Positions 57,164 to 61,422 of a DNA stretch of 64,000 nt are shown in pieces. Positions within the stretch are counted from its first letter, which is position 1. Each line of letters begins with the position of its first letter. The DNA is from Hyphomonadaceae bacterium (GTDB lineage Bacteria > Pseudomonadota > Alphaproteobacteria > Caulobacterales > Aquidulcibacteraceae), in contig JAIELJ010000010.1 of assembly GCA_019753105.1 (NCBI GenBank), positions 62,001-126,000 of the forward strand. Direction: 5' to 3'. The translations under genes and the position numbers were made by a program. The notes beneath the pieces were generated by a model, which made no database searches, was not told where the DNA came from, and was given only the letters and a program-made list of their open reading frames with translations.

Positions 57164-59233
57164 ATGCGTAAGATTTGGTTGGCGGCTGCGGCCGTTTTGG
57201 TGCTCACCGCATCCGCTGCGGCGCAAACAAAACCCGAGCCAGGCGCGCCGACGCGTGTGACTGCGCCGCCGGTCTGGGATCGGCTCGAACGCTTCGCCAA
57301 CGAAGCGGATTTCAACCGCTACTTGAACGATCTCGCGGCGCTGAATGGCGGCCGTGGCCGCTTCGGCGATGGCGCCGTGCTCGATTATGCTACCGCGCCA
57401 CCCGTACCGCCGCCGCCGCCACCACCGCCACCACCGCCTCCGCCTCCGCCTCCGCCGCCGGGCTCTGCGCCCGCGCCGGCGCAGCCAGCATCGCCTGTCA
57501 TCGTCACGGGCTCGGCGGTTTCAAGCCCGAGCGGCGAGCAATCCTCAATCACTAACGTCCAAACGCAAGGCGTCGACGAAGGCGGCATCGTCAAACAGAT
57601 CGGCCGCTATCTCATTGTTCTGCAGGACGGGCGCCTGTTCGTTGCAGATACGCGCGCCGGAGATGGTGCAGAGCTCGCGCTCGTCAGCCGCACCAACGTC
57701 TATCGCTCGCGCCAGCAAGACACCTGGTATGACGAGCTGCTCACAAGCGGCAATCGCGTCCTCGTCGCCGGCTATTCCTATCGCGAGAATGCATCCGAGA
57801 TCACTGTGCTGACGCTCGGCGACGATGGCCAACTCACGCGCGAAGCGACGTATTACATTTCCTCGAACGACTATTACGACATCGAGAATTACGCGACGCG
57901 CCTCGTCAACGGCAATCTCGTCATCTACACGCCGCTCGATCTTTCCAACGTCGATCCGCGCCGGCCGATGCAATATCCGCTCGTGCGCCGCTGGATTCGC
58001 GATGGCGATACGCGCGCGGTAACCACGCGTGGCCGTGCGCTGTTCGATGCGCAAGACATCTACAGGCCGATCCGCTCGCTGCGCGAGCCGATGGTGCATT
58101 CCGTCAGCGTCTGTCCGCTTGGCGATCTGCAATCGGGCGACGAGTTCGAGTGCCGCACAACGGCGTTTGTCGGCCCAAGCCAGCGTGAGTTCTTCGTCTC
58201 CACGGCGGACATCTATCTGTGGACGACGCCGAACCAATGGGATGAAAGCCTCGGTGAGTGCAGCGGCGCCGCCGAGAGCCTGCCGGCTACGCTCTACCAA
58301 GTGCCGCTCGATGGCTCGTCGCCGCGCGCATTGTTCGCCCGTGGCGTGCCGCAGAGCCAACTTGCGCTCGACGCCACCGCGACCGAATTCCGCGCGCTGC
58401 TCAACCAAAATACCCGCAGCTGTGGCCGCACCCGGCCCGATGATCTCGACGTCAGCTATTTCAGCGCGCCGTTCACAGCGCTCAGCACCAGCCCGCGCGA
58501 GATCGCAAGCAGCGCCTATACCCAAACGCCGAGCCCCGGCGGTCTGGCCTATGAGGTCCGCTTCACCGGCGACTACGTCGTGTATGGCGCGCGTGAGAAC
58601 CGCCGCTCATCGCCACCCGGCGCGCGCGATAGCGCGCCGCTTACGGCGCGCGTCACCGCCGTGCCAGTCGATCGCCCGCGCGACGCAGTGACTGTGGATG
58701 CGCCACATAACGTCATCCGGCTCGAGCGCGCTGGGCGCGATGTCATTCTGAGCGGCTATCGCACGCAAGCCGGACTTTCCATTTCGCGCCTGGCGCTCGA
58801 TGGCCGTCCGCGCATCACGCAGACGGAGCTTTTGCGCAACCGCTTTGAATCCGAGAACCGCAGCCACGCCTTCAACGCACTCGTCGGCCCCGAAGGCGAC
58901 GGCGTCATGGGCCTGCCGACAGTGGAGCGCGCGAAAGAGGGTGACCGCGCGCCCTATCGCTCGAGCGCCTCCGACGTGAGCTTCCTCACCATCGACAGAA
59001 CTGGCCGCCTCGCCAGCGCCGGCGAACTCGCTGCTAGCCCCGATGGCCGCGATCCGAGCTATGCCTGCGAAGTCTCTTGCGTCGATTGGTACGGCAACAC
59101 GCGGGCGCTCTTCATCGGCAACCGCATCTTCGCGCTCTCGGCTACTGAGCTGATCGAAGGGTCACTCCAGAACGGCCGCGTCGCCGAACGCCATCGGCTC
59201 AATCTTTCGCGCCCACTAGAGAGCCGCCGCTAG
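57164..59233 (+). CDS. Secreted beta-propeller domain protein, copy 1
   Basis: 689 residues. Signal peptide 1-21 (ASAAAQ). Residues 42-58 hold RLERFANEADFNRYLNDLAAL-like helix, then 18 consecutive prolines (82-99), then VIVTGSAVS (112-120), then the propeller domain from about 128. That domain opens ITNVQTQGVDEGGIVK, the hallmark of PF09826-type secreted propellers, and has SHAFNALVGPEGDGVMGLPTV and SYACEVSCVDWYGNTRALFIGNRIFALS near the end. Periplasmic or surface. Function unknown. Closely related to the next gene over the whole propeller. ATG 57164 behind GGGGAG. Confidence 0.87.
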   Translation: MRKIWLAAAAVLVLTASAAAQTKPEPGAPTRVTAPPVWDRLERFANEADFNRYLNDLAALNGGRGRFGDGAVLDYATAPPVPPPPPPPPPPPPPPPPPPGSAPAPAQPASPVIVTGSAVSSPSGEQSSITNVQTQGVDEGGIVKQIGRYLIVLQDGRLFVADTRAGDGAELALVSRTNVYRSRQQDTWYDELLTSGNRVLVAGYSYRENASEITVLTLGDDGQLTREATYYISSNDYYDIENYATRLVNGNLVIYTPLDLSNVDPRRPMQYPLVRRWIRDGDTRAVTTRGRALFDAQDIYRPIRSLREPMVHSVSVCPLGDLQSGDEFECRTTAFVGPSQREFFVSTADIYLWTTPNQWDESLGECSGAAESLPATLYQVPLDGSSPRALFARGVPQSQLALDATATEFRALLNQNTRSCGRTRPDDLDVSYFSAPFTALSTSPREIASSAYTQTPSPGGLAYEVRFTGDYVVYGARENRRSSPPGARDSAPLTARVTAVPVDRPRDAVTVDAPHNVIRLERAGRDVILSGYRTQAGLSISRLALDGRPRITQTELLRNRFESENRSHAFNALVGPEGDGVMGLPTVERAKEGDRAPYRSSASDVSFLTIDRTGRLASAGELAASPDGRDPSYACEVSCVDWYGNTRALFIGNRIFALSATELIEGSLQNGRVAERHRLNLSRPLESRR
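57407..57460 (+). repeat. 18-codon polyproline run
   Basis: Eighteen proline codons in a row (CCG, CCA, CCT mixed) within the propeller protein copy 1. Such a run would need EF-P for translation and forms a rigid linker. Absent from copy 2. Confidence 0.95.
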
Positions 59234-59247
59234 CGCCGGTTGAACAC

Positions 59248-59346: not shown

Positions 59347-61422
59347 ATGCGCTGGCAAGCTGGCATTATGAGCGCGGCGTTTCTTGCCGCTTGTGCAACT
59401 GCGGACGCGCCGCGTCCGGCCACGCAGGCGCCATCGTGGCCGACACTATCGCGCTTCAGCAGTGAAGCGGAGTTCTTGCGCTATGTCGCAGACGCCGCCG
59501 CCGCACGCGACGCGCGGCGTGAGCTGGGAGCATTCGCGGGCAAACAGAGCGTTGAGCCTGAGTGTCCACCGGATGATCCCGCATGCCTTGGTGAAGAAGC
59601 GGAAGAAGCCATTGTCGTTACAGGCTCTCGCATTCGTCAGCGCGATTTTCAAACCACCAGCCCGATAGCGTCCGTCGGCGCCGAGGCCATGACGAACGCG
59701 CAGATCACCAACGTCCAAACCGCGGGCGTGGACGAAGGCGATATCGTCAAGATGATCGGGCCTTATCTGATCGTGCTTCAGGATGGGCGGCTGTTTTCCA
59801 TCGATACCGGCCAATCGGCAGCTGATCTGCGTTTCGTTGACCGCATGAACGTCTATCGGCGCAGCACTGCCGATATCTGGTATGACGAGATGCTGGTGAA
59901 CGGAAACCGCATCGTCGTCACTGGCTATAGTTACGGCGAAGACGCCACGGAATTCTCAGTGTTTTCGCTGAGCGAGGACGGGCGCTTCACGCGTGAGAGC
60001 GTCTATTACCTCTCGTCTGACGATTACTACGACACTGAAAACTATGCGACGCGCCTCGTCGGCGGCAATCTCGTCATCTACACGCCGCTCGATGTCAGCG
60101 AGATCGATACGAGCGAGCGCCCGCGCTGGCCGCTCGTGCGCCGTTGGTTGCGCGACGGCGAGGAACGCGCCGTGGCGACAAGCGGCCGGTCGCTGTTCGA
60201 TGCGCGCGATATCTACAGGCCGATTCAGGCGACGACATCGCCGACGATCCACACGATCTCCGTGTGCCCGCTCGGCAGCACGCGCGCCGGCGATGAACTC
60301 GATTGCCGCAGCACCGCCATTGCGGGGCCAGGCATGCGCGAGTTCTACGTATCGAACGATCACGTCTATCTGTGGCTCTCGCACGCGCCGGGCTATTACG
60401 GTTATCTCCGCAGCCAGTTCGACCGCGCGCGCTGCGACGCGCGACTACCCGGCAGCTTCGGCTATGCCGGCGAAGCGGCGCTCTTTCAGATATCGCTGCG
60501 CGATGGTCGCCCGCGCGCCATGTTCGTGCGCGGCCACCCCTACGATCAGATGAGCTTTGAAGCGACCGGCGATACGCTTTATGCGCTGTCGGTCTGGACC
60601 GATCCGAACTGCCGCGACCGCCCGGAAGATTTGCCGCTGCGCTTTCTGGCGACTCCGCTCAGTGCCTTCAGCACGCGCCCGCAAGCGGCGGCGCAAGCTC
60701 TCTACACACTTCTGCCGAGCCCAGGCGGCGCGGCGATGGAGAACCGGTTTGCGCAAGGCCATCTCGTTTATGGCGGGCGCGAACGTTGGACGTCCTATCC
60801 GCCGCAAGACGAGTCGGATCTATCTGCGCGCATTGTCGCTGTGCCGACTGCTAACCCTCGCGCGGCGGCAATCCTTGAGGCGCCGCACAATCTGATCCGC
60901 GTTGAGAGCATCGGCGTCCGCGCCGTGCTGACCGGCTATCGCGACGACAGCGCGCTCAGTATCTCCGTGCTCGATCTACAAGATACGCCACGTCTGACTG
61001 ACACAGTGCGGCTGGAGGGCCGTTACGAGTCCGAAAATCGCAGCCACGCCTTCAATGCATCCGTCGATGAACACGGCGCGGGCTTGTTCGGACTGCCGAC
61101 AGTGCACGTGGAGCGTCGCGCTGGCCGCTGGTGGTGGAATAGCGAGTCCTCGGACTTGAGCTTTCTCTCCGTCGGCCGCGACGGTCGCATTGCGCCACTC
61201 GGCGAACTGACCTCGGACTCCGAAGAAAGCATGAACCCGGGCTATTCCTGTGAGGTCTCCTGCATCGATTGGTATGGCAATTCGCGCCCGATATTCGTGC
61301 GCGACCGCGCCTTTGCGCTTTCTGGTGTCGAACTGATCGAAGGGATGGTGCGCGAGGGGCGCATTGCTGAGATCGGGCGCGTCAACTTCACTGCGCCGCC
61401 GCCGCGGCGCACGAAGCATTAG
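59347..61422 (+). CDS. Beta-propeller lipoprotein, copy 2, with TonB-box/plug-like segment
   Basis: 691 residues. Lipobox FLAAC (Cys16), so lipid-anchored. RFSSEAEFLRYVADAAAA mirrors copy 1. A CPPDDPAC pair (73-80) is followed by EEAIVVTGSRIRQRDF then QTTSPIASVGAE (86-113), which looks like the TonB box and opening of a TonB-receptor plug domain. Then ITNVQTAGVDEGDIVK opens the PF09826-like propeller (about 120-680). The end carries SCEVSCIDWYGNSRPIFVRDRAFALS-like sequence. No receptor barrel is present. ATG 59347 behind GGGGAGG. Stop interlocks with the ion channel gene. Confidence 0.86.
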   Translation: MRWQAGIMSAAFLAACATADAPRPATQAPSWPTLSRFSSEAEFLRYVADAAAARDARRELGAFAGKQSVEPECPPDDPACLGEEAEEAIVVTGSRIRQRDFQTTSPIASVGAEAMTNAQITNVQTAGVDEGDIVKMIGPYLIVLQDGRLFSIDTGQSAADLRFVDRMNVYRRSTADIWYDEMLVNGNRIVVTGYSYGEDATEFSVFSLSEDGRFTRESVYYLSSDDYYDTENYATRLVGGNLVIYTPLDVSEIDTSERPRWPLVRRWLRDGEERAVATSGRSLFDARDIYRPIQATTSPTIHTISVCPLGSTRAGDELDCRSTAIAGPGMREFYVSNDHVYLWLSHAPGYYGYLRSQFDRARCDARLPGSFGYAGEAALFQISLRDGRPRAMFVRGHPYDQMSFEATGDTLYALSVWTDPNCRDRPEDLPLRFLATPLSAFSTRPQAAAQALYTLLPSPGGAAMENRFAQGHLVYGGRERWTSYPPQDESDLSARIVAVPTANPRAAAILEAPHNLIRVESIGVRAVLTGYRDDSALSISVLDLQDTPRLTDTVRLEGRYESENRSHAFNASVDEHGAGLFGLPTVHVERRAGRWWWNSESSDLSFLSVGRDGRIAPLGELTSDSEESMNPGYSCEVSCIDWYGNSRPIFVRDRAFALSGVELIEGMVREGRIAEIGRVNFTAPPPRRTKH

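Follow-up and report, generated by a model that had tools for sequence, protein, structure and literature searches.

A TonB-box segment resembling a receptor N-terminus in the linker of an exported beta-propeller protein of a Hyphomonadaceae bacterium

TonB is usually seen as the motor that powers uptake through receptors, and bacteriocins such as colicins, which are imported toxins, carry a TonB box on a non-receptor protein. In TolB, a propeller protein of the cell envelope, a disordered box at the N-terminus serves as the binding site of TolA; the complex resembles TonB with its TonB box (2.2 A), and TolA has been proposed to pull TolB off Pal (both in parts of PMC7066135 and PMC7391070). 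Parts of a 2025 study on periplasmic force transducers deal with VWA-fold transducers and YfbK-like folds linked with Ton/Tol-type motors and describe an origin of TolB by barrel loss, while TonB-boxes are named once in these parts, for receptors (PMC12204202). No description of TonB boxes on the cell's own non-receptor proteins was found in the open-licence PubMed Central literature, a weak negative with the spelling "TonB-box" covered only in compounds. Here, we analyze two adjacent genes, designated copy 1 and copy 2, which encode beta-propeller proteins of the family PF09826 (Beta_propel) and are located in a 64,000-nucleotide (nt) stretch of DNA from a Hyphomonadaceae bacterium (GCA_019753105.1, contig JAIELJ010000010.1, positions 62,001 to 126,000; "the window"). 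An earlier note on this DNA had claimed a VVTGSR-type motif in both copies; it is strong in copy 2, and copy 1 has a weak VIVTGS box only. We read the motif as a genuine TonB box, here carried by envelope proteins that have no transport role; it would be bound by TonB and would work like the TolA box of TolB. We give this reading a probability of about 0.5. It is based on the predicted disorder of the linker, the fit to a matrix derived from receptors, the DNA copied from a receptor gene, the mainly synonymous changes, and the occurrence in exported VWA and SIMPL proteins.

The segment in copy 2 is, judged by its DNA, a piece of a receptor gene and not a chance likeness. Its likely donor is a gene for a TonB-dependent receptor in the same genome (L004/L174, G000:C16), matched with a blastn E value of 5.5e-23 in a search of 50 receptor loci, and the shared stretch of 94 nt is the only significant match between the two genes. 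At the protein level, 29 of 31 residues of the receptor segment are reproduced: the linker of copy 2 reads EEAEEAIVVTGSRIRQRDFQTTSPIASVGAE, and the receptor L004, which has a Plug match, reads EEAEEAIVVTGTRIRQRDFQTTSPIATVGAE near its N-terminus. The case for a TonB box with the first plug residues is thus stronger than had been claimed, since the DNA itself appears to be receptor-derived. The motif had been placed at 59602-59682, where it is indeed found, with plug-like residues extending to 59685. A Plug profile (PF07715) does not match copy 2; the corresponding 56 residues of a genuine receptor (L147) are also unmatched by Pfam, so that this proposed check is uninformative. No outer-membrane barrel was found in copy 2, as the earlier note had stated: PF09826 is the sole Pfam family at E values up to 10, and the model is a propeller.

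For scoring of the box, a matrix of 10 residues with the consensus EEEIVVTGTR was learned unsupervised from 50 receptors of four genomes. It contains receptors only and was then applied to the propellers; the training receptors themselves score 7-28 bits. The box of copy 2 is the best of 53,432 ORF (open reading frame) positions in the window, three of which reach at least 10 bits, and its score is still 19.3 bits on a matrix made without the likely donor and the relative of this donor in genome G004. On the minus strand, a look-alike with 16.3 bits is located at 32743 within an open frame of 244 residues.

Copy 2 differs from the donor receptor by 13 synonymous and 2 replacement changes. When a third receptor serves as reference, the propeller branch shows 6-8.5 synonymous versus 1-2 replacement changes on approximately 21 and 60 sites, respectively, and under free drift roughly three replacements per synonymous change would be expected. 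Because synonymous changes far exceed replacements on the copy-2 branch, the comparison suggests that the protein sequence of the segment matters in the propeller.

The survey of the PF09826 family detected linkers with at least 8 bits in 48 of 73 alphaproteobacterial proteins and with at least 10 bits in 40 of them, and both numbers are unchanged without the donor receptor and the G004 relative in the matrix. Among four propellers from three genomes outside the Alphaproteobacteria, retrieved as loci by a phylum search, none has a linker box at 8 bits. Within the genus, a linker score of at least 7 bits is reached by all six copy-2-type proteins and by seven of the 12 copy-1-type proteins (clades taken from a quick tree), so that the proposed check on orthologues is largely in favour of the motif. 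In shuffling of the N-terminal stretch, p was at most 0.01 for 50 of 80 ORFs, a set including three wrong frames and the four outsiders. The linker outside the box core varies freely among relatives. An acidic residue no more than four positions before the core is present in 86 of 93 linker matches, compared with 18 of 62 matches inside the propeller (overlapping matches counted). By its place, the acidic residues ahead and, in several cases, the plug residues behind, the linker motif is set apart.

Plug residues past the box occur in four propellers, i.e. copy 2, L028 (G004), L092, and L096. In L028 the graft extends to LINELPQ, and 51 residues align at 86% identity with a receptor encoded in the genome that carries L028. 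The graft of L092 belongs to the same receptor class, and that of L096 is from a different one. On the quick tree, on which L028 and L096 form long branches, the four plug-bearing propellers represent four separate changes, all forced by well-supported branches. Orthologues of copy 2 at the loci L023, L024, and L025 possess the box and lack the plug residues, the simplest explanation being that copy 2 acquired its plug part in situ.

The motif is not confined to the PF09826 family and was also found in exported proteins of unrelated families, where it occupies linkers or loops. One query over 30 genomes of the genus gave 42 matches, some of which were opened, most others lying in frames of approximately 1000 residues, as in receptors; five non-receptor hosts were recognised, namely two propellers, two VWA proteins, and one SIMPL protein, all with an export signal by eye. 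One of the 42, a short frame (L207), is matched by the Plug profile. The same receptor segment, EEAIAVTGTRIRERDFQTTSPVASPP, is carried by a YfbK-type VWA lipoprotein encoded in the genome of copy 2 (L204, 1600-3312, minus strand); a VWA protein of another kind (L205, G027) likewise has a receptor segment, and the SIMPL protein (L206, G014, 1960-2820, minus strand) shows a receptor-like segment and, shortly after it, a second IVVTGT. A survey of the order for PF12450 (83 of 150 genomes) with 84 matches, of which 50 were taken and 46 had readable N-termini, gave a linker box of at least 8 bits in 25 of the 46 YfbK-type proteins (26 without the donor receptors in the matrix) and in none of the 46 VWA bodies over the body stretches covered. 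Receptor-like sequence continues past the box in the YfbK-type proteins L243, L224, and L234. In divergent SIMPL proteins the box is located in a late loop in five of 20 taken, in addition to L206. Searched against annotated plasmid genes, the 30-residue receptor segment matched receptors only (28 of 28), with eight more matches unannotated at the place.

These distributions bear on neutral hitch-hiking, by which ectopic gene conversion with receptor DNA would overwrite tolerant proline-rich linkers and leave a protein sequence of no function. Such a process would fit the varying lengths of the grafts and their location in linkers (that of copy 2 is predicted to be disordered), the third of propellers without a clear box, the frequent changes of the box label on the tree, and the many receptor donors, with 20 Plug matches in the same genome. 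It does not account well for a core that recurs in deeply split propellers while other linker sequence varies, for the few replacement changes on the copy-2 branch, or for the finding that the five recognised non-receptor hosts are all exported; we therefore regard it as rather unlikely.

In AlphaFold2 (AF2) models of both copies, the box lies in stretches with a predicted local distance difference test (pLDDT) score below 50 (residues 61-131 in copy 2 and 99-141 in copy 1), and the propeller begins after it. The segment is predicted to be disordered and, with the location taken from signal and lipobox by eye, may be a flexible part exposed to the periplasm. VIA-align searches with the copy-2 model gave large propellers of the eIF3b/eIF2A type as nearest solved folds, one of them titled nine-bladed, with BamB further down the list. 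Strands with the sequences IVVTGY and VLTGYR occur inside the propeller, which would suit a convergent likeness in which the VVTGS core serves the propeller or another partner as an edge strand. We consider this distinctly unlikely, as neither model shows the box as a strand, the acidic context differs between linker and propeller matches, and convergence of strands can hardly explain the plug residues of copy 2, L028, L092, L096, L205, and L206.

The features of the locus are compiled in Table 1. The description as two adjacent propeller paralogues of about 690 residues is correct: the copies are 47% identical and exceed the PF09826 gathering score of 22.4 with 49.4 and 51 bits. From the N-terminus, both show the order signal or lipobox, RFxxEAxFxRY helix, linker, and propeller. 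The common leading helix is also seen in the AF2 models (residues 40-62 in copy 2 and 47-62 in copy 1), and inspection by eye agrees with one cleaved signal and one lipobox. The linker of copy 1 contains a run of 18 prolines (57407-57460, residues 82-99) ahead of the box.

Table 1. Positions of the propeller genes, their linker segments, and the flanking genes (window coordinates)
Feature	Position	Strand	Description or evidence
Copy 1	57164..59233 (ORF 57164-59230)	+	Exported PF09826 propeller protein, 689 aa, Sec-type signal, polyproline linker
Weak TonB-box core VIVTGS of copy 1 (residues 112-117)	57497..57514	+	7.2 bits, shuffle p 0.01; linker predicted disordered
Copy 2	59347..61422 (ORF to 61419)	+	PF09826 propeller lipoprotein, 691 aa, lipobox LAAC
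Apparently receptor-derived DNA tract of copy 2 (TonB box and first plug residues)	59593..59686	+	84% over 94 nt to receptor gene
TonB box EEAIVVTGSR of copy 2 (residues 86-95)	59602..59631	+	21.9 bits on receptor matrix
Plug-leader residues IRQRDFQTTSPIASVGAE of copy 2 (residues 96-113)	59632..59685	+	Receptor comparison
eipA homologue (PF06577, envelope integrity protein A)	56500..57084	+	Pfam E 1.5e-70; directly 5' of propellers
Ion-channel gene (PF00520)	61419..62261	-	Pfam; conserved downstream neighbour

The close neighbours of the propeller genes are genes for an amidohydrolase, EipA, and an ion channel, with no tol-pal cluster among them. In 16 of 18 propeller-bearing genomes of the genus, an eipA homologue adjoins the propeller within flanks of 1.5 kb, the exceptions being G004 (L028) and G015 (L038), and the order eipA, propeller(s), ion channel was also found at L023, L024, and L025. 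As to whether neighbouring genomes keep both copies together, this is seldom the case (two of the 18 propeller-bearing genomes, from a search of 30 genomes of the genus that are not all complete). At L024 (genome G010, 6001-10126) both copies are present in reversed order, the copy-2 type ahead of the copy-1 type. At L025 (5910-7952) the copy-2 orthologue is spread over two frames, which may reflect a decayed gene or a sequencing error. The EipA family is mostly confined to Alphaproteobacteria; in Brucella the protein is located in the periplasm, and cells that lose it become more sensitive to envelope stress, as described in part of PMC10787603. The conserved eipA neighbour therefore suggests a role in maintaining the envelope and not in taking up nutrients.

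As box and export suffice for it and varied attached domains would fit, a decoy function can also be conceived, in which the proteins titrate TonB from its receptors without being pulled. This leaves unexplained why certain domains are retained and why, in the genus, the location next to eipA is kept, and we take it to be improbable. Mimicry of a receptor plug, put forward in the earlier note, by which the segment would dock into or compete at a receptor barrel, could draw on the receptor-matching residues beyond the box core (18 in copy 2, 37 in L028) and is very improbable, since most of the boxed relatives read by eye carry the box core without a plug part.

Several observations weigh against a genuine TonB box. 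Among the 73 propellers, 25 stay below 8 bits, and the genus contains 12 copy-1-type proteins, five of them without a box. Strands of the propeller carry IVVTGY, and 17 of the 73 propeller bodies reach 8 bits. The matrix alone is not specific, because two frames of the same genome that read as cytoplasmic enzymes score 18-20 bits. The box is labile and comes and goes: across 76 rows, its label has to be gained or lost 18 times on the quick tree (shuffled mean 22.4). The box was found neither in YfbK of E. coli nor in a second YfbK-type protein of the same genome (L239). The donor of the graft in L028 is uncertain, because the receptor DNA nearest to it comes from a different genome (80% over 116 nt versus 74% over 141 nt). 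The estimate of selection is based on 81 nt and the sampled receptors, and would be weakened by a closer unsampled donor. Finally, the AF2 models are shallow, with five sequences and mean pLDDT values of 65.3 and 63.7.

TonB is present in the genome, with five TonB_C hits over the cut-off. If the motif acts as a genuine TonB box, the periplasmic C-terminal domain of TonB would bind it by strand addition, and TonB driven by ExbBD could pull on the attached domain or free it from a partner in the outer membrane or the cell wall, in parallel to TolA acting on TolB through its N-terminal TolA box. In copy 2, which would be lipid-tethered with the box between anchor and propeller, one may speculate that TonB tugs the propeller or strains its link to the outer membrane. 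A broader and more tentative picture would comprise a set of endogenous non-transport clients of TonB, consisting of boxed propellers, YfbK-type VWA proteins, and SIMPL proteins, whose boxes would be inherited and sometimes rewritten by gene conversion with receptors. TonB-ExbBD would then perform mechanical work in the envelope, as a separately arisen, TonB-driven counterpart of TolA-TolB. If this is true, the Ton system has further clients and the phenotypes of tonB mutants need to be re-read. The case moreover shows a short docking motif that passes from one gene to an unrelated one through local copying of DNA. The boxed proteins would also provide living cases for the proposal, discussed in part of PMC12204202, that TolA-TolB grew from a TonB-type system.

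In comparison with known systems, copy 2 shares with TonB-dependent receptors the TonB box and the first plug residues, with 84% identity of the DNA over 94 nt, and differs from them in lacking a Plug profile match or a barrel, being continued by a propeller instead. In contrast to bacteriocins such as colicins, the boxed proteins described here belong to the cell itself and occur widely in the order. Both copies resemble the PF09826 family in scoring above its gathering cut-off, whereas the N-terminal helix, the linker, and the box all precede the profile match and the four members read from outside the class have no box. The VWA force transducers, as far as parts of PMC12204202 describe them, are located in the inner membrane, whereas the VWA proteins found here are exported and bear the box that a transducer would bind. 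TolB of the Tol-Pal system is likewise an envelope propeller with a disordered box, the disorder being predicted in the present case. In contrast to TolB, neither copy matches the TolB N-terminal or propeller-repeat families (Pfam, E values up to 10), the box is of the TonB-receptor type and internal, whereas that of TolB is located at the mature N-terminus, and copy 2 is itself a predicted lipoprotein.

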